Shown here piece after piece: positions 21,988 through 39,213 of a stretch of DNA of 64,000 nucleotides. Both the position numbers and the translations under genes were made by a program. Under the pieces are notes generated by a model. That model was not told where the DNA came from, did not search any database, and saw only the letters and a program-made list of their open reading frames with translations. Source of the stretch: Saccharothrix sp. ALI-22-I (GTDB taxonomy: Bacteria; Actinomycetota; Actinomycetes; Mycobacteriales; Pseudonocardiaceae); the NCBI RefSeq assembly GCF_001984175.1, contig NZ_MTQP01000055.1:1-64000 (forward strand), written 5' to 3'. The stretch's first letter is position 1; every line of letters begins with the position of its first letter.

Positions 21988-22250
21988 CGCGCTCCTTTCG
22001 GCGTCCCTACCCTCACGACGGGCTCGGGGCACCGGATGGTTCTCGACGGGGCGGCCGGGAGCGCTCCCGGCCTCCGCGCGGTCGATCCGCCGCATCGACC
22101 TTTGGCGATCACAGAGTCGCCATCAGGTAAAACACCTGTGAGTAGTGCGTTACGTCATATTCGCCACACACGTGGACTATGGCGCTCGCGCGCGCCATCC
22201 CGCACGCTTCCCTCCGCAAAACAGCGGTGAGTCGCAACGGGGGGAAGCAC

Positions 22251-25200
22251 ATGGCCCAATCGGAGTCCTCGCGCGTCGTCAGACCGGTGGGCCGTGCGCT
22301 CGCGGCGGCGCTCGTGCTCGTCATGACGGCCTCGACGATCAACGCGATCGAGCCGGCCCGGGCGGTCGCCGCACCGCGGCCCGCGCAGAGCGGGCAGACC
22401 GAGCAGTTGCCGGCGAAGAACGAGGCCGCGGACATCCCGTCGGCCCGCGCGACCGCGGCCCTGCACAAGATCCGCGTCGAGGCGCTGAGCGAACGCACCG
22501 AGAACTCCTCGACCTTCGTCAACGCGGACGGCAAGCTCACCACCGACCTGCACGCGGGACCGGTGCGCACCAAGCGCGGTGACGCCTGGGTGCCGGTCGA
22601 CCTGACGCTGGAGAAGCGCGCGGACGGCACGATCGCGCCCAAAGCGCACCCGCGCGACCTGGTGATCGCCGGACCCGGCGGCAAGGCGGGTGAGAGCCGT
22701 GACCTGGCCGTGGTGCGCCACGGCGACGCCGAGGTCGCGTTGCAGTGGACCGGCGCGCTGCCCGAGCCGAAGCTGGAGGGCCGCAAGGCCACCTACCCCG
22801 ACGTGCGGCCCGGCGCCGACCTCGTGGTCGAGGCGACCCGCACCGGGTTCGAGCAGTTCCTGGTCCTCAAGCAGCGCCCGAAGGGCCCGGTCGAGCTGAC
22901 GCTCCCGCTGCGCACCAGGAACGCCACCCCGAAGCACAAGGACGACGGCAACACCGACCTGCTCGACGCGGCGGGCACCGTCGTCGGCTCCATCCCCAAG
23001 CCCGAGATGTGGGACGACAAGCGGCACGAGAAGACCGGCGAGCCGCTCAAGCGGGTGCCGCTCGGCCTGGACGTCAAGCCGGCCACCGCCGCGCGCTCGG
23101 CCCAGCCGGACAAGCAGGCCGCCACCGAGCTCAAGCTCACCGCGGACGCCGGTTTCCTGGCCGCCGAGGACACCCGGTACCCGGTGGTGATCGACCCGGT
23201 CGTCGACCTCGGCCCGGTCTACGACAAGTACGTCCAGACCGGCACGACGGCGGACACCGGCGGCTCGACCGAGTTGCGCCTGGGCACGTTCGACGGCGGC
23301 GCGACGGTGGCCCGTTCGTACTTCAACTTCGACCTGTCCCAGTTCCGCGGCAGGCGCATCCACAGCGCGCGGCTGAACCTGTACGAGTGGCACGCGTGGT
23401 CGTGCGACGCGCGTGACTGGCAGATCTGGGACACCGGCCTGATCGGGTCCGGCACCAACTGGAACGCCCAGCCGCCGTGGTACACGCACTGGTCCACCAC
23501 CAGCGAGACGAAGGGCTACTCGGCGTCCTGCAACGACGGCTGGGTCAGCGGCGACATCCGCGGGCTGGTGCAGTTGGCGGCGGACAACGGTTCCGGCATG
23601 GTCGGCGTGATGGCCAAGGCCGCCAACGAGAGCGACAACTACAGCTGGAAGAAGTTCGACTCGGCGCAGGCGGGCGGGGTCCCGCACATCACCGTCGACT
23701 ACAACTCCCGCCCCGACCCGGCGACCGGCTTGGACGTGTCCGACCGCGGCGACTCCAACGGCCAGACCTTCACCCGCTCCACCACGCCCACTCTGTCGTT
23801 CCGCCCGAGCGACCCGGACGGCGGCACGGTGCGGGCCGCATTCTTCGTCTACGAAGGCGACCGGATGATCCAGGACCACTGGCTCACCGGTGTGCCGTCG
23901 GGCAGTGTCGTCACCTGGAAGGTCCCGGCAGGCATTCTCCAGTCGGGTAAGAGCTACCGGTTCCGGGCGACCACTGTGGATGACCACGACTGGGCCGACG
24001 ACGCCTGGGTGACCATCCGCTCGGTCGGCTCGAACCAGAACATGGACCTGCCGAACTGCACGTCCGAGAACGGCAGGCAGTTCATCCAGTGGCCCGCCAA
24101 CGGCAGCGACTGCCAGCGGTTCGCGCTGTACAACACCGGTGACGGGCATTACGCGATTCCGACGATGGCCACGCTCAAGGCGCTGGACCTGCGCAATTGC
24201 GACAGCGCCGACGGCGCTGCGGTGCAGCAGTGGCCCTACAACGGCAACCCCTGCCAGCGGTGGCGGCTGGACCACGTCGGCAACGGCGAGTACAAGCTCA
24301 TCTCCCAGGCCAGCGGCAAGGCGCTGGACGTGCCGGGCTGCACGCAGAACCAGGGCAACGGCCTGTGGACGTGGACGTCCTTCGACACCGCGTGCCAGCG
24401 GTGGCGCCTGGACGTGTCGCCTGCGCGTGGCGCGCAGGTGCAGTGGCGGCAGTTCACCGTGGACACCCAGGATCCCGGTGCGCCGTTCGTGTCCTCGGTG
24501 GACTACCCGAACGACAACAAGTGGCACAAGGCGGCGGGGCAGGCGGGCACGTTCACCTTCACCCCGCCGGCGGGCACCGCTGACGTGCACTCCTACCTGT
24601 GGGCGTTGGACGCCGTGCCCACGACGGAGGTGGTGGCCGGCGCGGACGGCAAGGCCACGCCCGCGATCACACCGGCCACGGACGGCCAGCACACGCTCAA
24701 CGTCCGCACCAAGGACCGGTCCGGCCGGTTGTCCGGGATCAGCTCGTACACCTTCCACGTGGGCCGGGCCGGGTTGTTGCGGCCGGCGGAGGCCACCCGG
24801 GTGCCGCGGCGGCTCCAGTTGCAGGTGGACGGCGAGCCGGCGTTCACGCACGTCAAGTTCGCGTGGCGACGTGGTCCGGGCGCGGCGGTCGAGGCCGACA
24901 TCCCGTCCGCGAACCTGACCAGGGCGAACGGGGCGTCGTTGGGCGCGGGGTTCGTGCCGCTGTCCTCGTTCGGCGAGTTCGCGGTGTGGAACGCGGTCGA
25001 CACCCTGGGCGAGGCCGCCGGCGTGGTGCAGGTGAAGGCCGTGCTGGCCACCGACGCCGCCGGCACCGGCGCGTACTCGACCGCGTGGCGCACCGCGGTG
25101 GTCGACCCGAGCGCGGAGAACGCGGCCGGGACGTCGATCGGCCCCGGCTCGGTGAACCTGCTGACCGGTGACTACTCGATCGGCTCGACCGACGCCGAGG

Positions 25201-28200
25201 AGTTCGGCCTGTCGGTGTCGCGCACGTCGTCCTCACGCGACCCGCGGGCCGGCTTCCAGCTGCAACGGCAGCGGCTGACCGCCAACCAGCAGAAGGTCTC
25301 CGCGGACACGGCCGGGTTCCTCCCGGGCACCGCCACGATCGCCCGCAACACCGAACGCGGCCACGACAGCACCGACTCGCTGGAGGTCATCCCCACCGGG
25401 AACACCCAGTGGGGCAACGACACGTTCGCCACTGTCGAAGGCGACATGAACGGCGGTATGCGCCTGGGCATGAAGGCGGGCCGCACGTACCGCGTGAGCG
25501 GGTGGATCTACGTGCCCGCGGCCACCGGCCTGAACACCGAGCACTACCGCGGCCTGAGGATCACCGCGTTCGCGCGGACCCCGGCGGGGTACCCGGAGTG
25601 GTCCACGAAGCGGCCGACGGCCGTGGACGCGTGGCAGCAGCTCACGCTCGACTTCACCGTCCCGAACGACGCGACCGAGGCGTTCATCCGCCTGTACAAC
25701 GGTTTCGCGCCGGGCAGCGGCAAGAAGGTGTACTTCGACGACCTGTCCCTGCGCGAGATCACCGCGCCGTTCGGGCCGCACTGGGAGACCGGCGCGGAGG
25801 TCGACTCGGCGCAGATCGACTACACCCGCCTGACGTTCCCGCACCAGGACACCGTGCAGGTCGAGCAGGCCGACGGCTCCTCGATCTGGTTCACCGGCAC
25901 CCCGGACGGCCGGTTCTGGCCGGAGCCGGGCGCGGAGGACCTGGCGCTCACCAAGCAGGGTGACGCCTACCGGCTGTCCGAACTGGACGGCACGGTGACC
26001 ACGTTCGCCAAGCCCGCGGGCACGGACACGTACCTGGTGGACAGCGCGACACCGCCCGCGCAGGCCAACGTCACCCGCTACACCTACGAGAACATCGACG
26101 ACCAGCTGCGGATCAAGCGGGTGATCGCGCCCCAGGAGCCGGGCATCGGCGACTGCACCGCGACCACGCCCGCCCGCGGCTGCGAGGTGCTGGAGTACGA
26201 GTACGCCACCTCCACCACCGCGACCACCACCGCGCTCGGCGACATCACCGGCCAGATCCGGGCCATCGCGGCGTGGAGCACCGACCCGGCCACGGGCGCG
26301 GTGTCCAAGGCCGACGTCGTCCGCTACACCTACGACGACCGCGGCCGGTTGCGCGAGGTGTGGGACCCGAGGCTGGCCCAGCCGCTCAAGACGAGCTACG
26401 CCTACGACGACGCCGGGCACATCACCGAGATCGGTCAGCCGGGTGACCTGCCGTGGCGGTTCGACTTCGGCCGGGCCGGGTCGGGCGACGACAACACCGG
26501 GCGGCTGCTGAAGGTGCGCCGTGCGGCGCTGCGGGCGGGCACCAAGGACCAGTTGGACGGCGAGATCGCCACGACCGTGGTCTACGGCGTGCCGCTGACC
26601 CGTGCCGCCGGCGGCCCGTACGACCTGGACGGCGGCGCGATCGCGACGTGGGCGCAGGCCGACGCGCCGACCGACGCGGTGGCGGTGTTCGGCCCGGAGG
26701 ACCCGGCGTCGGTGCACACCGCGACCGGGCAGACACCCGGCGCGGACGGCTACCGGGCGGCCACGGTGCACTACCTCAACGCCTCTGGCCGTGAGGTCAA
26801 CACCGCGACGCCCGGCGGGCACATCGACACCAGCGAGTACGACCGGTTCGGCAACGTGGTGCGGCAGTTGGAGTCCGCCAACCGGGCCCTGGCCCTGGGC
26901 CAGTACCCGGACGGCGACACGCACCTGTCGACGTTGGGCCTGGCGCAGTACGACAGCAAAACCAGGGCCACCTGGCTGGACACCCGCAGCACCTACAGCA
27001 CCGACGGCCTGGACCTGGTCGAGTCGCTGGGCCCGCTGCACCGGATCGCCCTGGCCAACGACGCGACCAGGCTGGTCAACGCCCGTGCCGTCACCCGCAC
27101 CACCTACGACGAGGGCAAACCGGACGGCGTGGCCTACCACCTGCCCACCACCGAGCGCGCCGGCGCGCGGGTGGTCGGGGTGGACGGCGACCAGGACGTC
27201 CGGGTGAACAAGAACGAGTACGGCCCGCAGTACGGCGGGGCGTCCGGCTGGACGCTGCGCAAGGCCACCAAGGTCATCACCGCCGCGGAGACCACCGACC
27301 CGCTCGAAGCGGCCACCAAGTACGACGACCAGGGCAGGGCGCGGGAGTCGCGCAAGATCGGCTCGAACGGCGCCGACGCGGGCACCACCCGTTCCGTCTT
27401 CTACACGGCCGGCGCGAACCCCGACGACGCGGCGTGCGGCAACCGACCCGAGTGGGCCGGCCAGGCGTGCGTGGTGCGGGCGGTGGGTGCGATCACCGGG
27501 CACGACGCGGCGCGGATGGTCGGCGAGATGCCGGTGCGCCGGGTGGAGTCCTACACCCGGTTCGGCGAGCCGGACCGCATCGTCGAGACCGTGGCGGGCC
27601 GGACCCGCACCACGGTCAACACCTACGACGCCGCCGACCGGCTGGTCGGCACCCGCATCACCGGTGACCTCGGCGAGCCGATCCAGCAGGTCGGCACCGA
27701 CTACGACCCGGTCTCCGGTGACGCGCTGACCACCAAGTTCACCGACGGCACGACCGTGAGCGCGACCGTGTCGCGCGAGTTCGACCGGTTGGGCCGGCTG
27801 GTGCGCTACGCCGATGCCGACGGCGCCTGGACCACGACGGAGTTCGACCGGTTCGGCAAGCCGGCGAAGATCACCGACTCGTTGGGCACCAACCAGACCT
27901 TCACCTACGACCGCGCCGCCGAGCCACGTGGGTTCGTCACGTCCGTCGCCGACAGCGTCGGTGGCTCCATCAACGCCCACTACGGTCCGGACGGCCAGAT
28001 CACCAGCCTTGACCTGCCCGGCGGCGTGCGGATGGACCAGCAGTTCGACCCGGCGGGCGTGCCGGTGGCGCGCACCTACCGCAAGGACGGCACGGTCATC
28101 GCCGCCAGCGCGGTGGTCGAGAACGCCCAGGGCCAGTGGCTGCGGCACACCGGCCCCGGCTCGGACAAGCGGTACTCCTACGACGACCTGGGCCGGTTGA

Positions 28201-30074
28201 CCAGGGTCGAGGACACCTCCGCCGCCACCAGCGCGTGCACCGTGCGCACCTACGCGTTCGACCGGCGGACCAACCGCACCGGCAAGACGACCCGGGTCGG
28301 CACCACCGCGGGCGTGTGCCCGGGTGACTCGGAGCCGGCGCAAACCGAGTCCCACACCTACGACTCGGCCGACCGGCTCACCGACGCCGGCTGGGTGTAC
28401 GACGCGTTCGGCCGCATCACCGCCACCCCGGCGGGAGTGCAGAACAGCTACTACGTCAACGACCTGGTGCGCTCGCAGCAGACCGCCGACACGCGGATGA
28501 CGTGGACGCTGGACCCGGCGCTGCGGCAGCGGGCGTTCACCAGCGAGAAGCTGGTCAACGGCGCGTGGGCGAACGCGGTCACCAAGGTCAACCACTACGC
28601 CGACGACTCCGACGAACCGCGCTGGATCGCCGAGGACGTCACCCAGAACAACAACGTCACCCGCAACATCTCCTCACCCGAGGGCGACCTGGCGCTGACC
28701 ACGTCGCTGTCCGGTGACGTCAAGCTCCAGCTGACCAACCTGCACGGCGACGTGATGGCCACCGTCCCGGTCGTGTCCGGGCAGCTCGGCGCGGTCACCG
28801 TGCTCGACTACGACGAGTACGGCACGCCCGCCGAAGGCTCCACCGCCCGCTACGGCTGGTTGGGCGGCAAGCAGCGGTCCGCCGAGGCACTGGGCGGCGT
28901 GGTCCTCATGGGTGTGCGGCTCTACCACCCGGGCACCGGCCGGTTCTGGCAGGTCGACCCCGAGGACGGCGGCAACGCCACGGCCTACGACTACTGCGCG
29001 GGCGATCCGGTCAACTGCACCGACCTCGACGGCAGGTGGGGCTGGCTGAAGAAGGTCGCGAACGTGGTGGCCAAGGTCGCCGAGGTCGTGTCCTACATCC
29101 CGGGCCCGATCGGCGCCGTGGCGGGTGCGGTGTCGGCGGTGGCCTACGCCTCGACCGGCAACTACCGCAAGGCCGCCGAGATGGCCGTCACCGCGGCGGC
29201 CAACCTGGTCGGCGCGGGTGCGGCGGTCAAGGGCGGCATCGCGGCGGTCAAGGCCGCATCGAGAACCGTGCCGAAGGCGGCGTCCCGCGCGGTCAAGGCG
29301 GTCAGGTCCACGGCGACACGAGGCCGAGCGGGGTGCAACTCGTTCACCCCCGACACACCGGTGGTGATGGCGGACGGCACCGGGAAGGCGATCGGCGAGA
29401 TAGAGCCGGGCGACCTGGTGGCGGCCCGCAACCCGGAGACCGGCGAGGTCACCACCCAGCCGGTGCTGGACGTCATCGTCGGCTACGGCGACAAGTACCT
29501 GGTCGACCTGGACCTCGACCCGAGCACACCTCGGGCGCTCACCGCCACCGCCAACCACCCGATCTGGGTGGACGGCCGCGGCTGGGTAGACGCCAAGGAC
29601 GTCCGCGTCGGCGACCTGGTGGTCGGCTCCGATGGCGCCCCCACGGCTGTCCTGGCCGTGGTCGACCACGGCCTGCAGCGCGACACACTGGTCTACAACC
29701 TCAACGTGGCCAACGCGCACACGTTCCTGGTCGTCACCGACGGATTCGACCTCACCGTCCACAACGCGACCACCAGTTGCCCGGTGTGGGCCGGCCACAC
29801 GAGGCACGGGCTGAACCAGTCGATCGGGCGCAACGACGGCCGAGGGGTGAACCTGCGTGCCATGCGCGACGCGGTGCGCAATCCGAAGAAGGTCGTTCAG
29901 CAGGAGGGGGGCACGGTCAGGTACGTCGGCCGCAACGCCCAGGTCGTCCTCAACCGGGACCGGCAGATCGTCACGGCGTTCGGAAAGTCCCGCGGACCGA
30001 AGCCGGACGTTCGGCGATCGGCGCAAGGCAACGGCAACAAGGCAAAACGGCGTGCCGGGCGGTCCCTCAACTAG
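22251..30074 (+). CDS. Giant secreted RHS/YD-repeat polymorphic toxin with HINT and RNase-like tip (2607 aa)
   Basis: A signal peptide (residues 1-40) precedes a DNRLRE-type stalk domain (about 322-483), a ricin-type lectin (about 597-722; QQWPYNGNPCQRW repeats), a carbohydrate-binding-like domain (about 1035-1170), and a long YD-repeat shell (about 1270-2260) ending with the core block RLYHPGTGRFWQVDPEDGG. A hydrophobic helix region (2265-2330) and a HINT self-cleaving domain follow (Cys2362 in GCNSFTPDT, TANHPIWV, ending DLTVHN near 2503). The last 100 residues (HGLNQSIGRN, RAMRDAVRNPKKVV, VVLNRDRQIVTAFGK) are basic and resemble DUF4258/BECR-fold RNase toxins. ATG 22251 follows GGGGGAAG. 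It is likely a contact weapon released by self-cleavage. Confidence 0.88.
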   Translation: MAQSESSRVVRPVGRALAAALVLVMTASTINAIEPARAVAAPRPAQSGQTEQLPAKNEAADIPSARATAALHKIRVEALSERTENSSTFVNADGKLTTDLHAGPVRTKRGDAWVPVDLTLEKRADGTIAPKAHPRDLVIAGPGGKAGESRDLAVVRHGDAEVALQWTGALPEPKLEGRKATYPDVRPGADLVVEATRTGFEQFLVLKQRPKGPVELTLPLRTRNATPKHKDDGNTDLLDAAGTVVGSIPKPEMWDDKRHEKTGEPLKRVPLGLDVKPATAARSAQPDKQAATELKLTADAGFLAAEDTRYPVVIDPVVDLGPVYDKYVQTGTTADTGGSTELRLGTFDGGATVARSYFNFDLSQFRGRRIHSARLNLYEWHAWSCDARDWQIWDTGLIGSGTNWNAQPPWYTHWSTTSETKGYSASCNDGWVSGDIRGLVQLAADNGSGMVGVMAKAANESDNYSWKKFDSAQAGGVPHITVDYNSRPDPATGLDVSDRGDSNGQTFTRSTTPTLSFRPSDPDGGTVRAAFFVYEGDRMIQDHWLTGVPSGSVVTWKVPAGILQSGKSYRFRATTVDDHDWADDAWVTIRSVGSNQNMDLPNCTSENGRQFIQWPANGSDCQRFALYNTGDGHYAIPTMATLKALDLRNCDSADGAAVQQWPYNGNPCQRWRLDHVGNGEYKLISQASGKALDVPGCTQNQGNGLWTWTSFDTACQRWRLDVSPARGAQVQWRQFTVDTQDPGAPFVSSVDYPNDNKWHKAAGQAGTFTFTPPAGTADVHSYLWALDAVPTTEVVAGADGKATPAITPATDGQHTLNVRTKDRSGRLSGISSYTFHVGRAGLLRPAEATRVPRRLQLQVDGEPAFTHVKFAWRRGPGAAVEADIPSANLTRANGASLGAGFVPLSSFGEFAVWNAVDTLGEAAGVVQVKAVLATDAAGTGAYSTAWRTAVVDPSAENAAGTSIGPGSVNLLTGDYSIGSTDAEEFGLSVSRTSSSRDPRAGFQLQRQRLTANQQKVSADTAGFLPGTATIARNTERGHDSTDSLEVIPTGNTQWGNDTFATVEGDMNGGMRLGMKAGRTYRVSGWIYVPAATGLNTEHYRGLRITAFARTPAGYPEWSTKRPTAVDAWQQLTLDFTVPNDATEAFIRLYNGFAPGSGKKVYFDDLSLREITAPFGPHWETGAEVDSAQIDYTRLTFPHQDTVQVEQADGSSIWFTGTPDGRFWPEPGAEDLALTKQGDAYRLSELDGTVTTFAKPAGTDTYLVDSATPPAQANVTRYTYENIDDQLRIKRVIAPQEPGIGDCTATTPARGCEVLEYEYATSTTATTTALGDITGQIRAIAAWSTDPATGAVSKADVVRYTYDDRGRLREVWDPRLAQPLKTSYAYDDAGHITEIGQPGDLPWRFDFGRAGSGDDNTGRLLKVRRAALRAGTKDQLDGEIATTVVYGVPLTRAAGGPYDLDGGAIATWAQADAPTDAVAVFGPEDPASVHTATGQTPGADGYRAATVHYLNASGREVNTATPGGHIDTSEYDRFGNVVRQLESANRALALGQYPDGDTHLSTLGLAQYDSKTRATWLDTRSTYSTDGLDLVESLGPLHRIALANDATRLVNARAVTRTTYDEGKPDGVAYHLPTTERAGARVVGVDGDQDVRVNKNEYGPQYGGASGWTLRKATKVITAAETTDPLEAATKYDDQGRARESRKIGSNGADAGTTRSVFYTAGANPDDAACGNRPEWAGQACVVRAVGAITGHDAARMVGEMPVRRVESYTRFGEPDRIVETVAGRTRTTVNTYDAADRLVGTRITGDLGEPIQQVGTDYDPVSGDALTTKFTDGTTVSATVSREFDRLGRLVRYADADGAWTTTEFDRFGKPAKITDSLGTNQTFTYDRAAEPRGFVTSVADSVGGSINAHYGPDGQITSLDLPGGVRMDQQFDPAGVPVARTYRKDGTVIAASAVVENAQGQWLRHTGPGSDKRYSYDDLGRLTRVEDTSAATSACTVRTYAFDRRTNRTGKTTRVGTTAGVCPGDSEPAQTESHTYDSADRLTDAGWVYDAFGRITATPAGVQNSYYVNDLVRSQQTADTRMTWTLDPALRQRAFTSEKLVNGAWANAVTKVNHYADDSDEPRWIAEDVTQNNNVTRNISSPEGDLALTTSLSGDVKLQLTNLHGDVMATVPVVSGQLGAVTVLDYDEYGTPAEGSTARYGWLGGKQRSAEALGGVVLMGVRLYHPGTGRFWQVDPEDGGNATAYDYCAGDPVNCTDLDGRWGWLKKVANVVAKVAEVVSYIPGPIGAVAGAVSAVAYASTGNYRKAAEMAVTAAANLVGAGAAVKGGIAAVKAASRTVPKAASRAVKAVRSTATRGRAGCNSFTPDTPVVMADGTGKAIGEIEPGDLVAARNPETGEVTTQPVLDVIVGYGDKYLVDLDLDPSTPRALTATANHPIWVDGRGWVDAKDVRVGDLVVGSDGAPTAVLAVVDHGLQRDTLVYNLNVANAHTFLVVTDGFDLTVHNATTSCPVWAGHTRHGLNQSIGRNDGRGVNLRAMRDAVRNPKKVVQQEGGTVRYVGRNAQVVLNRDRQIVTAFGKSRGPKPDVRRSAQGNGNKAKRRAGRSLN

Positions 30075-30079
30075 AAGTG

Positions 30080-30355
30080 GTGAATCCTGGGGTGATGCAA
30101 GGTGAAATCCCGGACTGGTTCTCGGCAGGACGGCAACACTGGGAGCTGCTGAACGCCGTGCTCGCCACGCACGGCGTCCCGGTTCAGTGGAGCCCGGACC
30201 GACCTGAGCCGGCCACCGTGGAGGCGGTCCTCGACGTGCTCGGCTCGGAGCTGGCCGACACCGGATTCGACGAGGCCGACAAGGCAACGCCGCGCGGCCG
30301 GATGCTGGAGGAGTTGGTGGACGTATTCAGCGAGTGGCATCCCGACTACCGATGA
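30080..30355 (+). CDS. Putative immunity protein for the RHS toxin
   Basis: A 91-residue acidic protein starting 6 bases after the toxin stop: QGEIPDWFSAGRQHWELLN, VEAVLDVLGSELADTGFDEA and MLEELVDVFSEWHPDYR. It is helical with many Asp/Glu, which fits neutralising a basic RNase tip. Starts at GTG 30080, GTG 30092 or ATG 30095 are all possible; AGAAG precedes the first. No named family was recognised. The immunity role is inferred from position, size and charge. Confidence 0.7.
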   Translation: MNPGVMQGEIPDWFSAGRQHWELLNAVLATHGVPVQWSPDRPEPATVEAVLDVLGSELADTGFDEADKATPRGRMLEELVDVFSEWHPDYR

Positions 30356-30560: not shown

Positions 30561-30860
30561 TTGGCGGCAGCGGTGGTGGAAGCACTGGAAGCCGCCTCGG
30601 CGGCGGAGTGCGAGGACTGGTTGCGCGAGAACGTCACCACCGAGCTGAACCGCGCCGACTCGTCTACTGTAGACAGACCGGTGGCGGGGACGCGCCTGCA
30701 CGCCGTGCGCCGTGCCGACGAGATGGCGGCGGCGACGGAGATGCTGGGGGAGCTGGGCGTGGAACCGGCCATCGCACGGGCGAGCCGGGACCTGCTCGCC
30801 CGACTCGCCGCCGCGAACGCGGTGCGAATCTCGGTCGCGGCGCCGCCCGAAGGCGAATAA
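30561..30860 (+). pseudogene. C-terminal remnant of a DUF1932 (phosphogluconate-dehydrogenase-like) protein
   Basis: The frame encodes AAAVVEALEAASAAECEDWL, then RLHAVRRADEMAAATEMLGE and LGVEPAIARASRDLLARLA. The RRADEM-x(n)-LGxxP pattern matches the helical C-terminal DUF1932 domain of NAD-binding phosphogluconate/hydroxyisobutyrate-type dehydrogenases. The N-terminal Rossmann domain is absent. Upstream lies a terminator and RHS debris. It is a fragment, ending 25 bases before rtcB. Confidence 0.65.
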
Positions 30861-30885
30861 CTTCTGCGTTGAGCAGAGGAGAACC

Positions 30886-32055
30886 GTGGAGCAGATCAAC
30901 AAGCGCCTGATGAACTGGGCGTCCATCCTCGACCCCGGCACCCGCGAGCAGGCCGAGAAGACGTCGAGGATGCCGTTCATCTTCCCGCACCTGGCGCTCA
31001 TGCCCGACGCACACCTCGGGAAGGGCGCCACGGTCGGCAGCGTCATCCCCACCCTGGGCGCGATCATCCCCGCCGCGGTCGGTGTCGACATCGGCTGCGG
31101 CATGATCGCCGTGCGCACCCAGTTCACCCGGGACGACTTCCGGCCGCGCCCGCTCGCCCCCCTGCGCGAGGCGATCGAGAAGGCCGTGCCGCTGTCGGCC
31201 GGGAAGTACAACAACCACCTGACCGGCACGGCGCGCGCGCGGGTCGAGCTGCTCGCCGACAGCGCGGAGAAGTCCGGCTTCGACCCCGGCTCCTACGTCG
31301 GCAACTGGCAGCTCCAGCTCGGCAGCCTCGGCAGCGGCAACCACTTCATCGAGGTCACGCTGGACGAGACCGGGCAGGTGTGGCTGTTCCTGCACTCCGG
31401 ATCGCGCGGTGTGGGGAACAAGATCGCCCAGAAGCACATCCGGATCGCCCGCGATCAGTGCGAACGCCGGTGGATCAGCCTGCCGGACCCGGACCTGGCC
31501 TACCTGGTCGAGGGCGAGGACGAGTTCTGGAGCTACATCCGGGAAATGCGCTGGGCCCAGGAATTCGCGTGGCTCAACCGCGAGGAGATGATGGACCGGG
31601 TGGTCGACTGCGTCTCCGACTGGATGGGTCGCGAGGTGGAACGGCAGGAGACGGTGAATTGCCATCACAATTACACGGAACAGGAAACCCACTTCGGTAA
31701 GAAGGTGTGGTTGTCCCGCAAGGGCGCCATCAATGCCGAGGAGGGCCGGCCGGGTCTCATCCCCGGTTCGATGGGCACCGCGTCGTACGTGGTGGTCGGC
31801 AAGGGCAACCGGGTCGGCCTGAACTCCTCGCCGCACGGCGCCGGCCGTGAGTACTCCCGTACGGCCGCTCGCAAGGCGTTCAACCGGGAGGACCTGCGCC
31901 GGGCGATGGTCGGCATCGAGTACCGCGACACCGACGCGTTCATCGACGAGATCCCGGCCGCGTACAAGGACATCGACATCGTGATGCACGACGCGCGGGA
32001 CCTGGTCGACGTGCGCCACACGTTGCGGCAGATCGTCAACGTAAAGGGTGATTGA
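30886..32055 (+). CDS. rtcB: RNA-splicing ligase RtcB
   Basis: A 389-residue RtcB. It joins RNA 3'-phosphate or 2',3'-cyclic-phosphate ends to 5'-OH ends with GTP and manganese. The metal and guanylate residues are all in place: Asp41 (MPDAHLGKG), Cys71 (VDIGCGM), His153 (LGSGNHFIEV), His170 (LHSGSRG), His261 (NCHHNYTEQE) and the guanylylated His317 (NSSPHGAGREYSR). Length is near the usual 390-480. GTG 30886 follows AGAGGAG. No archease gene is nearby. It heads a set of same-strand genes that includes an RNA-binding KH protein, which suggests RNA repair rather than tRNA splicing. Confidence 0.95.
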   Translation: MEQINKRLMNWASILDPGTREQAEKTSRMPFIFPHLALMPDAHLGKGATVGSVIPTLGAIIPAAVGVDIGCGMIAVRTQFTRDDFRPRPLAPLREAIEKAVPLSAGKYNNHLTGTARARVELLADSAEKSGFDPGSYVGNWQLQLGSLGSGNHFIEVTLDETGQVWLFLHSGSRGVGNKIAQKHIRIARDQCERRWISLPDPDLAYLVEGEDEFWSYIREMRWAQEFAWLNREEMMDRVVDCVSDWMGREVERQETVNCHHNYTEQETHFGKKVWLSRKGAINAEEGRPGLIPGSMGTASYVVVGKGNRVGLNSSPHGAGREYSRTAARKAFNREDLRRAMVGIEYRDTDAFIDEIPAAYKDIDIVMHDARDLVDVRHTLRQIVNVKGD

Positions 32056-32058
32056 CCA

Positions 32059-32096
32059 ACTCGGCGGCGGTGTGTATCGGCACGCCGCCGCCGAGT
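32059..32096 (+). terminator. Hairpin directly after rtcB
   Basis: ACTCGGCGGCGG (32059-32070) pairs with CCGCCGCCGAGT (32085-32096) over a 14-base loop, 4 bases after the rtcB stop. A second dyad, GCACAGG-G-CCTGTGC, lies at 32099-32113. The hairpin may end or weaken read-through into the next operon. Confidence 0.65.
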
Positions 32097-32167
32097 GGGC
32101 ACAGGGCCTGTGCGAATAGATCTGCCGGCTATGTAACGAACTCCCGTCGAACAGCCGATCACCACGT

Positions 32168-33544
32168 ATGTTGGTCAGCTTGACGCGGCTGGGCGCCGCC
32201 CGGCAGAGGTTCGACAAGGCATTCGCGGTGCTGGGTGTCGAACCGAACGCGATGGCGCGGACGTTCGCCACGGCCGATCTGCGCATTGGCGACACCCGGC
32301 TGCACATCGCCCCGCTTGAGGGCTCGCCGGGCCTGTTCACGATCGGTGTTCCGCTGTCGTGGCTGGGCAGCAGACCGGCCCGGGACGACCTGTTCACCGC
32401 GTTGGCCCACGTGGTGCGCCGGCTGTCCCAAATCGCGGGGAGAGCGGGCGGCGTCCTCGTGCCACCGGGGATCGCGACGACCAGGCAGGCCGGGATGCCC
32501 GGCGGTGACGTGCACACGATCGAGGTGTTGTCACCGGTGGAGCAGGAAGTGCTGTGCAACGTGTTGCGCAGCCGGGTCCCGGCGCTCATCGCGATGACCG
32601 GGCGCGGTGTCACCGCGAGCGGGCAACCCCTGGACCGGACGGGTTCGCGGTGGCTGGCCTCGTCACGGTCGCACCTCGCCGCCAGGTTCCTCGCCTCGAC
32701 CACGCACGAGCACCTGGACCGGGTCAAAGCGGAGCTGCGGCGTCGTGACGGCGTCGCACAGCTCGACCGGATGGACGTTTCCCCCGGCGAAGAACCGGAC
32801 GGCACCCTCACCGTCGTGGTCCGCTGCGTGGACTCCGCGGCCACCTTGGCGGCCGCCCGCGCACACGCCCTGGTACTCGCCGCACTGGCCATGCAGGTGC
32901 GCCGGATGGTGCGCGACGGCAGGCGGGCGGGACACGAACCCCAGCGCCTGCTGGAGGAGAACCGCGCCCGAGCGGTCGCGGACGGGCTGCGCGCCCGGCT
33001 GGCCGTGGAGGATCGCAGACCGGCGCAGCGAGGGCAGGGCAACGGTCGCGCCGCGCCCGCCGAGCCACGCAGACGTCCGGCGCGGGATGTGGTGCGCCAC
33101 CTGGTGAACGACGCCGCCGTCGAGTTCCGCAACCTGGACGCGGGGGTGGACGAGCTGGCGCCGGTCCTGCTCGCCCTCGACCTGCCGGATCTCGGCGTGA
33201 AGCACGGATCGACCGAAGCCGACCTGCTGGCGCACTGGGCGAGCGGTGGCGATGCCGAACTGCTCGGCCGCTGCCTCGACGCGATGACCGACGCCTCCCC
33301 GGGCGGGCCGCTGCTGGCCGTGCTCGACCAGTCGTTCCCAGGCCGGGTGTCGGTGGTGATGGGCACCTGGCGGACGCGATTCGCCGAGGCTGAACCGGCG
33401 AAGCCGGCCAAGCCGCCACAACGCCCGAACCGCCAGACCGCTCGGCGCGGCGGCAACGGCAGGAGCGGCGGCGACGGCAGGCGTGACGGCGACGGCAGGC
33501 GTGACGGGAACCGGCAGCGCGGCGACAGGAGGGCCGGCAGGTGA
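32168..33544 (+). CDS. Unknown protein of the RtcB-linked operon (458 aa)
   Basis: First gene of the overlapping operon. It is soluble, with no signal peptide or membrane segment. Residues 1-270 look folded: LRIGDTRLHIAPLEG, QIAGRAGGVLVPPGIATTRQ, GDVHTIEVLSPVEQEVLCNV, then DRTGSRWLASSRSHLAARFL and DGTLTVVVRCVDSAATLAAA. The xVHxxE, long helix, and SRWxxxRSHLxxR order weakly recalls the glutamine-synthetase/GCS2 ligase fold; this is tentative. Residues 270-300 are a charged linker, 310-410 a helical region (LVNDAAVEFRNLDAG, LLGRCLDAMTDA), and the end is very basic Gly/Arg/Asp-rich (GRRDGDGRRDGNRQRG), as in RNA-binding tails. There is no strong ribosome site before ATG 32168. Its TGA overlaps the next start. 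Confidence 0.8.
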   Translation: MLVSLTRLGAARQRFDKAFAVLGVEPNAMARTFATADLRIGDTRLHIAPLEGSPGLFTIGVPLSWLGSRPARDDLFTALAHVVRRLSQIAGRAGGVLVPPGIATTRQAGMPGGDVHTIEVLSPVEQEVLCNVLRSRVPALIAMTGRGVTASGQPLDRTGSRWLASSRSHLAARFLASTTHEHLDRVKAELRRRDGVAQLDRMDVSPGEEPDGTLTVVVRCVDSAATLAAARAHALVLAALAMQVRRMVRDGRRAGHEPQRLLEENRARAVADGLRARLAVEDRRPAQRGQGNGRAAPAEPRRRPARDVVRHLVNDAAVEFRNLDAGVDELAPVLLALDLPDLGVKHGSTEADLLAHWASGGDAELLGRCLDAMTDASPGGPLLAVLDQSFPGRVSVVMGTWRTRFAEAEPAKPAKPPQRPNRQTARRGGNGRSGGDGRRDGDGRRDGNRQRGDRRAGR

Positions 33545-34812
33545 GCGGCGAGGTCGAACTCGTGCTGGACGTGCGCGGACTGCGCAACGCGCCCACGTCA
33601 CCCGACGGTTTCGCGGAGCTGTGGGACGCCGTGGAACCGGTGCTGGTGGGCCGTGACCTCGGGCAACGCCCGGTGCACGAGCTGCACAGCCCCGACGGCC
33701 TGGTGCGGTTGGAGGTCGCCCGCCTGCCGGGTGGCGTGCGGGTCGTCGACGGGAACACCAGGTTCGCCATCGTCGCGGTGCGCGAACGGGCCCGCCTGCG
33801 CTACCGGTGCCGGCACTGCACGGCGGAGGGTGAAGCCACCTACGCCCCGTTCGTCTGCACGTCGTGCCCACCGGGTGACTCCGACAACCGGGTGTGCGAC
33901 CGGCACGTCGTGATCCTGGACGGCGCGCTGGTGGCGAACTGCCAGGACCACCACCCGACGTGCCAGGCGTGTTCGGCTCCGGCCGTGTTCCGCTGCGCGG
34001 GCCGTGTCTGTCGGCGTGAACGGGCCTGGTGCGCCGACCACCGCAAGCCGCACCCCCGTGATCCGGACGTGGACTACTGCCCGTCCTGCTACGACGACGT
34101 GTTCCCGCGTTGCGAGAACCGGTCGTGCACGGACATCGGCACGGTCCGCTGCGAGCACGTGTCGAGGGATCTGCGCCGCTGCGACCACCGGATCTGCACC
34201 CGGCACGCCCGCCGCTGGCAGGTGTTCGGCGGTGAGCGGATGGGCCTGGGCCGGTGTGAGCAGCACGGTGGGATGCGGGGCGTCAGCCCGGACGAGCTGA
34301 TGTTCCAGATCGTCGTCGGAGCGGCGGCGCGCAAGCGCAAGGAACGGTTGCCGAGCCTGCAGGGGTTCGCGCACAACCTGCGCAACAGCGGCCACCGGGA
34401 CCTGGCGCTGGACTACGACCGCATCCACCGGCTGCTCGGCGTGCTCGGCCGCGAAGTGGCCCGGGACCGTTCGGCGTCGAACGCGATGTCGGAGATGCGC
34501 CCGGTGTGGGATCGTCAGCTCGCGGCCTTGGCCACCACCTCCCAGGAGGGCATGAGGTTGGTCGAACGCCTCAAACGCCTGGTCATCGCGAACGACAGGC
34601 AGTTCGGTGCGGATATCGCGGCGGGGATCGAACTGGCCGAGTACAAACCGCCGCTCCAGCGCGACGGGGGCGTCGGCAGGCCGGCCAGGCTCTTCGTGAA
34701 GGTGCCCGAGCACCTGCGCGGCAGGTTCATCGGGCCGGGCGGGCAGAGCATCCGGGCCTACCGGGAGGGGCTCGGTGTGGAGGTGCAGATCGAAGGGGGC
34801 AGGCGCAAATGA
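33541..34812 (+). CDS. Multi-zinc-cluster protein with C-terminal KH domain
   Basis: A 423-residue cytosolic protein. Residues 90-242 carry a dense Cys/His array (RCRHC, CTSC, CDRH, CQDHHPTCQAC, CRRERAWCADH, CPSC, CENRSC, CDHRICTRH, CEQH), which suggests several treble-clef, RING or B-box-like zinc sites. Residues 255-370 are helical. Residues 384-420 form a KH motif: LFVKVPEHLRGRFIGPGGQS with the GPGG loop at 398-401. KH domains bind single-stranded RNA or DNA. The GTG start overlaps the upstream stop (GTGA) and its own stop overlaps the vWA start (ATGA), so these proteins are made together. It is the likely RNA sensor or adaptor. The exact zinc-fold class is uncertain. Confidence 0.85.
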   Translation: MSGEVELVLDVRGLRNAPTSPDGFAELWDAVEPVLVGRDLGQRPVHELHSPDGLVRLEVARLPGGVRVVDGNTRFAIVAVRERARLRYRCRHCTAEGEATYAPFVCTSCPPGDSDNRVCDRHVVILDGALVANCQDHHPTCQACSAPAVFRCAGRVCRRERAWCADHRKPHPRDPDVDYCPSCYDDVFPRCENRSCTDIGTVRCEHVSRDLRRCDHRICTRHARRWQVFGGERMGLGRCEQHGGMRGVSPDELMFQIVVGAAARKRKERLPSLQGFAHNLRNSGHRDLALDYDRIHRLLGVLGREVARDRSASNAMSEMRPVWDRQLAALATTSQEGMRLVERLKRLVIANDRQFGADIAAGIELAEYKPPLQRDGGVGRPARLFVKVPEHLRGRFIGPGGQSIRAYREGLGVEVQIEGGRRK

Positions 34813-36641
34813 CGCGCGTAGCGGACTCGACGTCGCACCGCTTGGCGGTCGTACCCGGTGGTGGCCCGATCGCGGGTAACCGCATCGGGTTGGCCGCCGG
34901 TGACGGCAGTGGCCCCTGTTTGATGAGCGTCCGCTCCACGACCGGGTGGCTGCGGACCGCGGTGTTCGCCGCGGAGTCGGACGCGGTGCCGCCGGGGCAG
35001 GTCGCGGTGGACGACGAACTGGCCGTGGCGTGGGACGTGGACGCCTCGGACCGCCCGGACTGGCTGCTCGACCGGATGACTCCCGTCCCGATCCGCCGCC
35101 TGGTCCTGGAACTGCCGACCGAGCGCGACCCCGCCGACGCCGCCCGCGACATCGCCAAGGCCGGTCTGGTGGGCACGCTGCTGTGGATTCCCGCCGGTGA
35201 CGTGGACGTGTCACTGCCGATCGACGGTGTGCCGCACCGGGTCCGCGAGATCGATCTCGGTGGCCGGACGGACGTCGTGGCGAGCCTGACCCGCGACACG
35301 GTCGTCGAGCTGCACGCGTCCGCGGTGCGTGCGGGTGTCGACATCGTGGTCCTGGCCGACTCCAGCAACTCCATGTCCGTGGACGACCTGCCGGTGGGCG
35401 TCGAATCGCGTCGGTTCTTCGGTTCCAGCCAGCGGTGGATCACGCGGATGGAGGCCCTCAAGCGCTCGCTGCAGGAGTTGCTCGACATCCGGTTGCAGAT
35501 CTCCGGCCGGGTGTCCCGGTTGGCGCTGCTGGAGTTCAACCACCAGGTGCGGCACCGGTTCCCCCGCCAGGGCGGGATGGCGCAGCTGGACGGGAGTTCC
35601 CCGGAGTCGCTGGTGCAGGACTTCCGCCACGCCGTGGCGCTGCTGCGCCCCAACGGCGGCACCAACATCGGCAACGCCCTGCACGAAGCGGCCAACCTGC
35701 TGTACCAGCACGGAAGACCGGGCAACGAGAAGCTCATCGTGCTGGTGAGCGACGGCGCGAACTGGACGCCGAGGGGTGATCAGGGCATCGGCGAGGTCGT
35801 GCACACCGTGGAGGAACCGGTGAGCCTGGTGGCGCACCTGCACCGCGACGTCGGCATCCGGTTGCACGCCATCGGGATCAGCACCGCCGAGCTGTTCCAC
35901 CGCCGCGGCCAGTACCAGCCCAACGAGACCATCGTGCCCAACCACGCCCTCCTGGAGGAACTGGTCAAGGTCGGCGGTGGCGACCCGACCACGGTCGGCG
36001 GCCTGGACGTGTTGGCCGACTACTTCGCCGGGCTCGGCGGCGGCATCATCCACCGGGTCGGTGAACGCCTCGGCGAGCCGGCCAGACCGGGGCCGCTGCC
36101 GGAGCGCACCCGACTCGCCCTCGATCGCCTGCGTTCCGTCGGGACCATCGACTGGGACCAACGGCGTGCCGAACTGAGCGGCCGGATCTCCGAGCTGGTG
36201 GGCCGGTGTGACACCGAGTCCCAGCGGGTGCTGGGCAGCCCGGCGTGGAGCGATGTGGACATCATGAGGTTGTCCACACGGGACCTCGGCAGGCTGGCGT
36301 CGGGGGACGGCGAACTGGTGCGGTTCCTCACCGGCCTGTCCGGGGGTCTGCGTCCCGGGCACGACTCGCCGCACTTCGGCGCGTTGCGTGCCGTGCTGGA
36401 CGAGCTGTCCGCGATCGCCGGGCGTCGGGCGGCCGACTACCCGAGGCTGAGCGAGGTGTCCGGCATCGCGGTCGACTCGCCCTCCAGTGCCCAGGTCGCG
36501 GTCATGCAGCGGGTGCACGATCTCCTGGTGGACCTGCACCGGACGATGGCCGGCGCCCAGCCGCACGTCGTGATCCCGGCGAACCCGGTGCCGGACGAGG
36601 CGCCCGCCCCGGCTCGCTCACGGTTCACCTACCGTGAGTGA
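34809..36641 (+). CDS. von Willebrand factor A domain protein (610 aa)
   Basis: An N-terminal domain (1-170) of unknown type leads into a vWA domain (about 178-400) with an intact MIDAS metal site: Asp184-x-Ser186-x-Ser188 in VVLADSSNSMSVDD, Thr285 (NGGTNIGNAL) and Asp315 (VSDGANW). A helical C-terminal half (430-600) contains a VDIMRLSTRDLGRLASGDGE segment. There is no signal peptide, so it is intracellular. Such vWA proteins assemble complexes through metal-dependent binding. Together with RtcB and the KH protein, the set recalls Ro/TROVE-RtcB RNA-quality loci, though no TROVE domain is visible. Start and stop overlap both neighbours. Confidence 0.87.
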   Translation: MTRVADSTSHRLAVVPGGGPIAGNRIGLAAGDGSGPCLMSVRSTTGWLRTAVFAAESDAVPPGQVAVDDELAVAWDVDASDRPDWLLDRMTPVPIRRLVLELPTERDPADAARDIAKAGLVGTLLWIPAGDVDVSLPIDGVPHRVREIDLGGRTDVVASLTRDTVVELHASAVRAGVDIVVLADSSNSMSVDDLPVGVESRRFFGSSQRWITRMEALKRSLQELLDIRLQISGRVSRLALLEFNHQVRHRFPRQGGMAQLDGSSPESLVQDFRHAVALLRPNGGTNIGNALHEAANLLYQHGRPGNEKLIVLVSDGANWTPRGDQGIGEVVHTVEEPVSLVAHLHRDVGIRLHAIGISTAELFHRRGQYQPNETIVPNHALLEELVKVGGGDPTTVGGLDVLADYFAGLGGGIIHRVGERLGEPARPGPLPERTRLALDRLRSVGTIDWDQRRAELSGRISELVGRCDTESQRVLGSPAWSDVDIMRLSTRDLGRLASGDGELVRFLTGLSGGLRPGHDSPHFGALRAVLDELSAIAGRRAADYPRLSEVSGIAVDSPSSAQVAVMQRVHDLLVDLHRTMAGAQPHVVIPANPVPDEAPAPARSRFTYRE

Positions 36642-38475
36642 GCCGGCGTTCCGGGACGGGGGCGGCACCGCGCCGTCCCGGTTCTACGTCGGTCCGCTGG
36701 ACGACCCGGACCAGTACCGGCTCGAAGAGCGGATCGGCCGTGGCGGCGAGGGCGAGGTGTGGCTGGCGACGACCGCGCGCCGTGACGGCAGTAGCAGGCA
36801 CCGGTGGGCGGTGAAGGTGCTGCACGCCGAGCACCTGCCGGCCGACCACGAGGAATCCGCGGCGCAAGCGTTGGCGCGGTGGCACGTGCGGGCGCTGGAC
36901 GCGTTGCGCGAGGCGAACCAGTTGCAGCGCGGTGTGACCGGGGTGGTCGGCGCCTCGGAAATCTTCATCGGTGCGCAACCACACCCGGCCGGACGGGAAG
37001 GCGACGTCCGCACGCTCTACGTCGTCTCACCGTGGATCGAAGGCGAGGACCTGGTCCGCTGGCTCAAGCGGCGGCCGGCGTTCGAGCAGGTGTGCGATGT
37101 CGTCTCACGGCTGGCCGAGGCCGTGGACGGCATCGCCGACGGCCCGCTCGCGGTCAGCCACCGGGACATCTCGCCGACCAACGTGATGGTCGAGCCGTCG
37201 GGGGCCGTGTGCCTCATCGACTTCACCTTCGCCGTGCCCACCCGCAGCGGCCCGGTCACCGCGATCCAGAACCGGGGTTACACCGCTCCCGAAGCGCGCA
37301 CCGGAAGGGGCAGCGCCGCGGCGGACCGGTATTCGTTCGGCGCCGTGGTCCACTACCTGCTCACCGGCCGACCACCGGACGAGTCGGACGCCGAGGCGGA
37401 CAGCCGCGCGATGCTGCTGCGGGCCAACTTCCCGACCGCCGTGGCCGACCACGTGGCCGCACTGCTGTCGGCCGACCCGGCCCGACGGCCGACCTCGCTG
37501 GTGCGCTGGGCAGCCGAGCTGGGCAGCAAGGGTGCCGTGGAGCCGGGCACCCTGCGCTACGGCGACCTCGACCTGGCCGTCGACGGTTCCGGCACCACCG
37601 TCGTCACCGCGGTCGGCACGACGGTGCTGTCCCAGGCCCGGTTGGGCGCCGGCGCGATGTGGGCCCTGGTCCCGGACGACAGTGCCCCGTTGGCCCCGGT
37701 GGCCGTCCGGTCGGTGACCGACGGCACGGGCACGACGGTGTGCTTCATGGTGGACAAGGCGGATCGGCTCTGGGTCGGTCGTGCGGGGGAGTGGCGGGAA
37801 GCCGGCGGCGCGAAGCTGGGCGGCGGCATCGCGGCGGTGCGGCTGCCCGGCGGTTCGACCGCGGCGTTCACCGCGGACCCGGACACCGACCGGCTGACCA
37901 CGGTCGAGTTCGGCCTCGACGGCTCGCTGCGGCGCACGACCGCCGGACCGCACGTCCGGCGCGTGCTGGCCGCGGCGAACGACCACGACGGCGAACCGGT
38001 GATCGCGGCCGTGTCACCTGCCGGCGAACTCGTCGGGGTGGACGCGCACGACCTGCGGCGACTCGGCCCGACCGGCGTGCTCACCGCCGACCTCTGCCTG
38101 AACACCTGGGGCGAACTCCAGTGCTTCGGCGTGCTCGCGGACACCCGGCAGGTGATCACCTTCGACCAGTTGTCCGGTATCTGGACGCCCGCCGGCGAGA
38201 TCCGGACACCGGGGCGGGTCGCGGACCTGGCCTGCATCGGCTATCGCGGCGGTGTGACGATCGCGGTGGCCTGCGATGAAGGGCTGTGGGTGGCGACCCA
38301 GTCCGATGACGGCCTGTCCGCGTGGCAGCAGCTCACCGACCAGCCGTGTCACCGGGTGACCCTCGGCGTCGGGGCGGCGTGGCGGCTGCGCTTGGCTGTG
38401 ATCGTCGACGGTCGCGTGGCGGTGTCGACCGAGGACTTCACCGGACGGTGGTCCACGGCGCTCAAAACACTCTGA
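36634..38475 (+). CDS. Cytosolic Ser/Thr protein kinase with C-terminal beta-propeller-like region
   Basis: Residues 25-300 form a Hanks-type kinase: Gly loop RIGRGGEGEVWLA (34-42), Lys61 (WAVKVL), catalytic SHRDISPTN (Asp178, Asn183) and metal-binding Asp196 in LIDFTFA, where DFG is replaced by DFT. GYTAPEA is the APE block. Residues 315-613 are beta-rich repeats ending in GLWVATQ-type strands, likely a propeller sensor. There is no membrane segment, unlike most PknB kinases. The GTG start overlaps the vWA stop by 8 bases. It probably phosphorylates or senses through the partner proteins. Catalytic residues other than the DFG glycine are intact. Confidence 0.88.
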   Translation: MSEPAFRDGGGTAPSRFYVGPLDDPDQYRLEERIGRGGEGEVWLATTARRDGSSRHRWAVKVLHAEHLPADHEESAAQALARWHVRALDALREANQLQRGVTGVVGASEIFIGAQPHPAGREGDVRTLYVVSPWIEGEDLVRWLKRRPAFEQVCDVVSRLAEAVDGIADGPLAVSHRDISPTNVMVEPSGAVCLIDFTFAVPTRSGPVTAIQNRGYTAPEARTGRGSAAADRYSFGAVVHYLLTGRPPDESDAEADSRAMLLRANFPTAVADHVAALLSADPARRPTSLVRWAAELGSKGAVEPGTLRYGDLDLAVDGSGTTVVTAVGTTVLSQARLGAGAMWALVPDDSAPLAPVAVRSVTDGTGTTVCFMVDKADRLWVGRAGEWREAGGAKLGGGIAAVRLPGGSTAAFTADPDTDRLTTVEFGLDGSLRRTTAGPHVRRVLAAANDHDGEPVIAAVSPAGELVGVDAHDLRRLGPTGVLTADLCLNTWGELQCFGVLADTRQVITFDQLSGIWTPAGEIRTPGRVADLACIGYRGGVTIAVACDEGLWVATQSDDGLSAWQQLTDQPCHRVTLGVGAAWRLRLAVIVDGRVAVSTEDFTGRWSTALKTL

Positions 38476-38487
38476 TGCGGAGCGATC

Positions 38488-39213
38488 TTGTACCAGGAGT
38501 ACGTCTACCTCTCGGACGCCAAGGTGCGCCAGTTCATCCCGACCGCGGCACCGTGGTGGCGGAAGATGCGCGCGAAGAAGCTGGCGGGCGGCGCGAAGAT
38601 CGGCGGCGTCGAGGCGTCGCTGGAGCTGGAGCCCTCGGAGGTGGCGCGCAAGTCCGAACTGTTGGACCAACTGGTGGACCACATCACCCTGGCCGGCCGG
38701 TGGTACACCGAGCCCGACCTGGTGCCCGGTGAATGGGTCTTCTTCGAGGGGCGGATCGGCTACCAGGTCACCGAGCACGACCCGGCGCGCGGCGCGGTGC
38801 TGTTCTGCGAAGCGGGGGAGGTCGCCGGCGCCGCACCGCGCATCGTGTTGCACGGCTCCGCCAAGCACCTGGTCGGGGGCTCCGGCCCGGTTCGCACACC
38901 CGCTCCGACAGAGCTCAACCGGTTCTCCGACCCGCAGAACGCCGGGGCCGTGGTGGATGCCGCGCACAGGTCCGCGCTGTCGCTGCCCGAACGGACGTTC
39001 TGGCGGCTGTTCGACCGGTCGACCGCTCAGGGCGAGGCCCTGCCACGGCACTTGGAGGTGCTGTTCCGGGAGATCGCCGGTACCGACGAGTACCTGGCCG
39101 CGGCACCGTTCCTGGGCGGGTGCGCGAAGGTGACCAGGGTGGTCCGATCGGCACGGTTGCCGTTCCCCGTGGTGGTGGCCTCGCCGCTGTACGTGCGGCA
39201 CGAACGGCCGTAG
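38488..39213 (+). CDS. Unknown small protein closing the operon (SAVMC3_10250-like, 241 aa)
   Basis: A soluble protein starting YQEYVYLSDAKVRQFIP, with PGEWVFFEGRIGYQV and a final FPVVVASPLYVRHERP. The YLSDxKVxQF opening and the SPLYVR end resemble actinobacterial proteins annotated as SAVMC3_10250 family. That naming is from memory and has no function attached. The start is TTG 38488, five bases after GGAG and 12 after the kinase stop, so it belongs to the operon. The middle (residues 60-140) may be a small beta barrel. Confidence 0.75.
   Translation: MYQEYVYLSDAKVRQFIPTAAPWWRKMRAKKLAGGAKIGGVEASLELEPSEVARKSELLDQLVDHITLAGRWYTEPDLVPGEWVFFEGRIGYQVTEHDPARGAVLFCEAGEVAGAAPRIVLHGSAKHLVGGSGPVRTPAPTELNRFSDPQNAGAVVDAAHRSALSLPERTFWRLFDRSTAQGEALPRHLEVLFREIAGTDEYLAAAPFLGGCAKVTRVVRSARLPFPVVVASPLYVRHERP

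Follow-up and report, generated by a model that had tools for sequence, protein, structure and literature searches.

In Saccharothrix sp. ALI-22-I, a tightly packed operon of five genes encodes, as its second product, a protein that combines tandem zinc-type cysteine/histidine modules with a KH domain within one bacterial polypeptide (here called Zn-KH). The operon lies in a 64,000-nucleotide stretch of DNA (contig NZ_MTQP01000055.1, positions 1 to 64,000; hereafter the window), to which coordinates refer unless another locus is named. The combination of modules and KH domain is supported by column conservation among homologues and by a structural model of the KH part, and the five-gene operon is solid, unlike its function. 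We tentatively favour a reading in which Zn-KH would be the nucleic-acid-binding adaptor of a vWA/kinase signalling complex, the whole forming an accessory module of conflict type, possibly directed against phages; a non-defensive regulator is nearly as likely. No description of the fusion or of the operon was found in the open-licence literature; possibly, the operon is a signalling or defence module not yet described.

The five-gene operon

The operon had not been described in the initial annotation of the window, and it offers the more informative context for Zn-KH. Its genes are arranged as follows:

32168–33544, + strand: gene 1, divergent YbdK/GCS2-like protein (carboxylate-amine ligase fold), 458 amino acids (aa), assigned by TIGR02050
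33541–34812, + strand: gene 2, zinc-cluster and KH protein (Zn-KH), 423 aa, GTG start, stop codon at 34810–34812
34809–36641, + strand: gene 3, vWA protein, 610 aa, assigned by Pfam
36634–38475, + strand: gene 4, Ser/Thr protein kinase, 613 aa, assigned by Pfam
38488–39213, + strand: gene 5, DUF7019/SAVMC3_10250 family protein, 241 aa, TTG start, assigned by NF040893 and PF22880

The identical gene order was found in all six intact copies, namely in the window and at loci L003 (the same stretch as L024), L019, L020, L021 and L022. With the start codons chosen by us, 4-base overlaps join the Zn-KH and vWA genes at 6/6 loci and the YbdK-like and Zn-KH genes at 5/6.

The gene 1 product reached only 23 bits against TIGR02050 (E 4.4e-5), where the cut-off is 176.4, and 5/6 of the gene 1 homologues matched this profile (E up to 0.1). 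Its residues 69–317 could be aligned with five YbdK paralogues from the same genome (profile alignment, E 9.5e-6, probability 83%). It differs from these ligases in two respects: the alignment does not reach their N-terminal GVE(E/Q)E(F/L) stretch, for which no counterpart could be seen in gene 1, and GGDVHT is found at the position of GCHVHV in the paralogue at locus L038. Because of these differences, gene 1 probably encodes a scaffold or a changed enzyme lacking the usual ligase activity.

In the vWA protein, the residues of the metal ion-dependent adhesion site (MIDAS; D184, S186, S188, T285 and D315) are intact in 6/6 copies. The kinase likewise retains K61, the HRD motif (176–178), N183 and D196 in 6/6, with DFT replacing DFG. 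Its C-terminal half looks strand-rich and, by eye only, beta-propeller-like; neither a zinc ribbon nor an OB-fold was matched at the C terminus by Pfam (E up to 10). The reading frame of the kinase gene at L020 is broken within this half.

Gene 5 was assigned with NF040893 (E 1.3e-49, 169.6 bits, above the 50-bit cut-off) and PF22880 (E 5.6e-9). No paper on this family was found under either name in the open-licence literature, and the operon supplies a context for it. DUF7019 proteins were detected in 5/197 genomes of the class, the host genome included, and no match to Zn-KH, the vWA protein or the YbdK-like protein was found near the other four genes. At one of these loci (L031 6233–10291, − strand), the DUF7019 protein adjoins a kinase with TPR and WD40 repeats, a second association with a kinase; the WD40 kinase matched the profile of the operon kinase only weakly, with filters off.

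The Zn-KH protein

The frame given for gene 2 in the initial annotation was confirmed, its GTG start overlapping the stop of gene 1 by 4 bases. The run of cysteine and histidine motifs noticed there at residues 90–242 is indeed unusual, comprising 19 Cys and 10 His, where the highest number of Cys in any 153-residue stretch of 12 other window genes checked was six. "About nine" clusters was a fair count, as we find nine CxxC or CxxH motifs (four and five, respectively) and three CxxxxC motifs. In an alignment of six full-length sequences (the window's own and five homologues), 25/29 of the Cys/His columns are invariant within residues 85–245, compared to 48/132 of the other columns; those that vary are C109 (gapped in L020), H92, H138 and H216. 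By the order of their motifs, the ligands can be read as three tandem modules of four pairs each:

33808–33951, + strand: zinc-type module 1, residues 90–137, CxxC-x12-CxxC-x9-CxxH-x11-CxxH
33961–34089, + strand: zinc-type module 2, residues 141–183, CxxC-x7-CxxxxC-x6-CxxH-x12-CxxC
34111–34266, + strand: zinc-type module 3, residues 191–242, CxxxxC-x7-C-x9-C-x4-CxxH-x16-CxxH

Seven ligands of module 1 are invariant in 6/6 homologues, the eighth (C109) being lost in L020. The exact choice of ligands in the modules is ambiguous, since H171 in module 2 and H206 in module 3 are also invariant. The module pattern was found three times in 5/6 homologues and twice in L021, which has a one-residue gap in the middle module. 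When the residues were shuffled 20,000 times, two or more modules never occurred and one module occurred in 173 shuffles, a descriptive result as the pattern was written after the sequence had been seen. Profile comparison among the three modules gave no convincing similarity, so that it is the ligand spacing that carries their reading as repeats.

The conservation of the Cys and His residues suggests that Zn-KH binds zinc, with a putative pairing of residues on each metal ion, and four pairs per module would be compatible with folds that hold two zincs, among them RING, B-box and ZZ. Binuclear RING/B-box-like treble clefs, as treated in sections of PMC4506424, are similar in that their eight-ligand spacing is compatible with that of each module; they differ in that no sequence match to the Zn-KH region could be detected and that Zn-KH has three such runs in tandem, as predicted here. 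The zinc region gave no match to Pfam or to PDB sequences at E up to 10, RING and B-box included, which leaves room for a distant kinship with these folds; the expectation that it belongs to no known simple zinc-ribbon family held in the same searches. For the full-length protein, a Pfam match to CxC3 at E 2 was taken as noise, and no match was obtained in NCBIfam or PADLOC, both at E up to 1, nor in PHROGs at E up to 0.01. AlphaFold2 modelled the zinc region alone with a mean predicted local distance difference test score (pLDDT) of 37.5, and the score of the region stayed below 50 in the full two-sequence model.

The C-terminal part contains the second recognizable domain:

34606–34791, + strand: KH domain of predicted type II order, residues 356–417
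34732–34743, + strand: GPGG loop of the KH domain, residues 398–401

Pfam KH_1 matched Zn-KH with E 3.1e-4 over profile positions 4–38 of 66, the score of 20.9 bits lying slightly below the curated cut-off of 21.5, and 4/6 Zn-KH homologues matched this profile (E up to 10). The initial annotation was right about a KH domain with an intact GPGG loop. In the two-sequence AlphaFold2 model, the KH elements are helix 356–362, strands 364–369 and 383–387, helices 390–397 and 399–411 and strand 414–417, with short strands at 372–374 and 377–380; a helix at 310–351, whose first part is not confident, precedes the core. Ten-residue means of pLDDT are 79–89 over residues 341–420 except for 54 at 371–380, and the mean is 68 at 331–340; for the KH core itself (356–417) they range from 79 to 86, apart from the same low block. 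Helices directly following the zinc region, as had been proposed, are present in the model at 250–332; pLDDT is below 50 there, and confidence begins only at residue 333.

Type I and type II KH domains have only their core in common, and type I is the form found in eukaryotic KH regulators. On the basis of the model, the KH part of Zn-KH is type II, the prokaryotic form with alpha-beta-beta-alpha-alpha-beta order, because this is the modelled order and because the chain ends 6 residues past the last KH strand (homologue tails are at most 6 aa longer), leaving no residues after the core for the C-terminal strand and helix of type I. The model was compared with 999 chains, and the listed matches cover mainly residues 326–423. 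The top match was a mitochondrial small-subunit assembly chain (8csp_a, Z 8.7, root-mean-square deviation (rmsd) 3.0, 82 residues aligned), followed by NusA (2cxc, Z 8.3, rmsd 3.0, 69 aligned), and lower down, where a Z below 8 may reflect only a common arrangement, by Era (7c1o, Z 7.1, rmsd 3.7, 86 aligned), KhpB/EloR (9lrg, Z 6.5, rmsd 2.9, 71 aligned) and the KH domain of S3 (1wh9, Z 6.2, rmsd 2.9, 71 aligned). Zn-KH thus resembles the type II KH proteins NusA, Era, KhpB/EloR and S3 in its modelled order and GxxG loop, and differs from them by its fusion to zinc-type modules. Sixteen of 20 weak PDB sequence matches (best E 0.0046) belong to KH proteins.

The kinship with eukaryotic regulators combining RING or B-box folds with KH domains, raised in the initial annotation, did not find support: the zinc region lacks a RING or B-box profile match and the KH domain is modelled as type II, so that the resemblance is at most an analogy. 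A bacterial version of this combination had been considered noteworthy; B-boxes in prokaryotes have been published before (covered in part of PMC4506424), so a fold of that kind would by itself be no novelty.

Distribution and flanking genes

The operon is rare and patchily distributed. Matches to Zn-KH were found in 7/390 genomes of the family Pseudonocardiaceae, six being full-length (the window's included) and one a remnant; the other five full-length proteins are 80, 60, 60, 59 and 56% identical to that of the window, and the carrier of L003 is Goodfellowiella coeruleoviolacea from the same family. None of 24 other genomes of the genus contained a match (0/24). The remnant (L023 9400–10100, − strand) is a decayed copy retaining fragments of genes 1 and 2 only, with the N-terminal part of Zn-KH beside a piece of gene 1, and adjoins a frame that looks NTPase-like by eye and has no PADLOC match. 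The vWA profile matched in 3/120 family genomes, all three being Zn-KH carriers, and the vWA protein was matched in 1/394 class genomes, which is the host genome itself.

Full-length Zn-KH was found in neither the class sample (394 genomes) nor the phylum sample (396 genomes) beyond the family carriers; the two samples overlap and, as in the family sample, no more than four candidates were scored per genome, so that distant relatives can have been missed. In the class sample, 10/394 genomes matched (E up to 0.01), comprising the window's own and nine partial matches (best E 3.0e-4), six over residues 278–418 and three over residues 27–163. The phylum sample gave 4/396 (E up to 1e-4), the window's own and three others over residues 277–416 (E 5e-5 to 7e-5). 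Three of the weak matches in other class genomes, at L006 1501–1704, L005 and L009 (E 3.0e-4 to 0.0052), fall in the N-terminal part or the zinc region of the protein. The initial annotation had called for homologues with and without the KH domain; five other full-length copies were recovered, and no full-length homologue missing either the zinc or the KH part was found in the genome samples. The vWA and YbdK-like proteins had no match on plasmids.

The genes around the other operon copies include a NACHT/STAND NTPase (L019), a caspase-like protein with a Pfam score below the cut-off (L003), an OLD-like ATPase together with weaker integrase and Mrr-like matches below the Pfam cut-offs (L020) and a second vWA protein (L022). 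At L021 (355–4860, − strand), a weakly ZorA-like protein, a small protein, a second vWA protein and a PP2C phosphatase are encoded on the same strand downstream of the operon. Such conflict-type neighbours of some copies are suggestive only.

Proposed role of the operon and alternatives

Several vWA-based systems were compared to the operon. TerY-P triads and the defence modules that resemble them (Anantharaman 2012, Gao 2020, following parts of PMC11090510) share with it a vWA protein, a Ser/Thr kinase and a zinc or nucleic-acid-binding part in a single operon, and according to the same parts of that source, links to defence are reported for TerY-P-like vWA/kinase modules that carry a nucleic-acid-binding or zinc part. 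In contrast to these, the zinc and KH regions form a separate protein rather than the tail of the kinase, and YbdK-like and DUF7019 genes are added. The operon is not a TerY-P triad, as no PP2C was matched by Pfam among its five proteins (the PP2C and second vWA at L021 lie beside it), and by analogy it may work in a similar mode. The vWA-MoxR ternary and GAP1-N2 conflict systems (Kaur 2020, PMC7159879), as far as the relevant portions of that article describe them, are similar in their vWA proteins with metal-binding MIDAS, their kinases and their actinobacterial hosts, and list a KH domain among those in effector position; unlike them, the operon has no match to a MoxR AAA+ ATPase or a GTPase. 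No MoxR/AAA+ protein was detected among the seven proteins scanned at 30561–39213, the one row named for an ATPase, MABP1 (E 0.013), falling on the kinase domain.

In the reading that we tentatively favour, Zn-KH would be a nucleic-acid-binding, most likely RNA-binding, adaptor in a signalling complex of five proteins. Its C-terminal type II KH domain would contact RNA, and the three zinc-type modules would form a rigid platform on which the YbdK-like scaffold, the vWA protein (via its intact MIDAS) or both could dock. Binding would be turned into phosphorylation by the kinase, with the DUF7019 protein as a candidate for the output or for a regulator. The operon would be accessory and of conflict type, possibly anti-phage, rather than housekeeping. 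We infer complex formation, a role in defence and the part of each partner from the conserved gene order, the overlaps, the co-occurring vWA protein, the patchy distribution, the KH model, the conflict-type neighbours and the TerY-P-like precedents. A narrower picture, in which the operon would be an undescribed actinobacterial module that senses RNA and acts against phages or in stress, is less likely: Zn-KH would bind foreign or damaged RNA and the vWA docking protein would relay the signal to the kinase, the ligase-like protein serving as scaffold and DUF7019 as the output. If the adaptor reading is true, an RNA-binding zinc protein would be added to the vWA/kinase type of bacterial signalling module, and a nucleic-acid signal could be read by such a module without an OB-fold or zinc ribbon fused to the kinase. 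The fixed set of five genes makes the complex directly testable.

A number of observations weigh against this adaptor reading. No effector (nuclease, toxin or protease) was recognized in the operon, the kinase alone among its five proteins matches PADLOC well, and only generically, and Zn-KH gave no match on plasmids or phages. The flanking genes vary between loci and their conflict-type company is given without a background rate; the frames scanned were picked by eye (10 and 9 in two scans, with metabolic, transposase-like and other frames left out), and 2/10 frames of the first scan had no match. As for the KH domain, the limited meaning of Z scores below 8 applies here too, and the fold match is not exclusive, since SirA ranks third (4tps_B, Z 7.7, rmsd 2.6, 74 aligned). 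Most of the top-scoring PDB sequence matches, Nova-1, PCBP2 and hnRNP K among them, are to type I KH proteins. The GxxG motif is broken in L022, the window's own loop is intact and lacks a basic residue, and the mean pairwise identity of the KH domain and linker is 0.49 compared to 0.66 for the zinc part.

Nearly as likely as the adaptor in a conflict module, and a possibility to be taken seriously, is a regulatory, non-defensive vWA/kinase complex for sensing or controlling either RNA or ribosomes in growth, development or metal/redox stress, with the zinc-type modules as its structural or metal-sensing part. The missing effector would fit such a complex, as would the intact vWA MIDAS and kinase residues, the presence of NusA, Era, S3 and KhpB among the KH rows of the fold comparison, and the hypothesis that TerY-P triads are metal-sensing phosphorylation switches (as put forward in part of PMC11090510). 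However, occurrence in 7/390 family genomes and in none of the 24 other genus genomes, together with one decayed copy, would be unusual for a core regulator.

It is unlikely that the KH fold no longer binds RNA and, together with the zinc-type modules, acts purely as a protein scaffold holding the complex together. This would account for the broken GxxG in L022, for the KH domain and linker being the least conserved parts and for the KH_1 score just under its cut-off, but GxxG is kept in 5/6 homologues despite drifting flanking residues, and a Lys or Arg is found among the two residues of the loop in 5/6, the window's own being the exception.

An RNA repair module built around the RtcB ligase gene upstream (30910–32055, same strand) is very improbable. 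This gene immediately precedes the operon, ending 112 bases upstream of gene 1, yet at the five other operon loci no RtcB was matched in the flanking DNA retrieved. RtcB is a single copy in its genome and is 87–89% identical in 4/5 genus relatives, where no operon gene lies within the 15–16 kb around it (the fifth relative, with an RtcB 48% identical, lies outside this synteny comparison), and RtcB was rejected as an operon partner on these grounds. DNA similarity with the four relatives extends through RtcB and ends at its stop codon or no more than 14 bases from it (window 32057–32069), and the operon therefore begins at a synteny break. Finally, a RING-type E3 ligase of a prokaryotic ubiquitin-like pathway, with which the four-pair Cys/His spacing is compatible through binuclear RING/B-box-like folds, is hardly credible, as RING profiles gave no match (E up to 10) and the seven proteins scanned at 30561–39213 yielded none to E1, E2, ubiquitin-like or JAB families.

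Further upstream, the window encodes a 2631-aa RHS-repeat protein (22179–30074, + strand) that carries lectin domains of the ricin type as well as a pretoxin HINT domain, a gene of polymorphic secreted toxin type. The short frame that follows it, ending at 30355, has no Pfam match and could be its immunity gene. Between this frame and RtcB, a 99-aa frame (30561–30860, + strand) matches DUF1932 (E 6.4e-12) and is perhaps the C-terminal part of a longer enzyme, a gene remnant.

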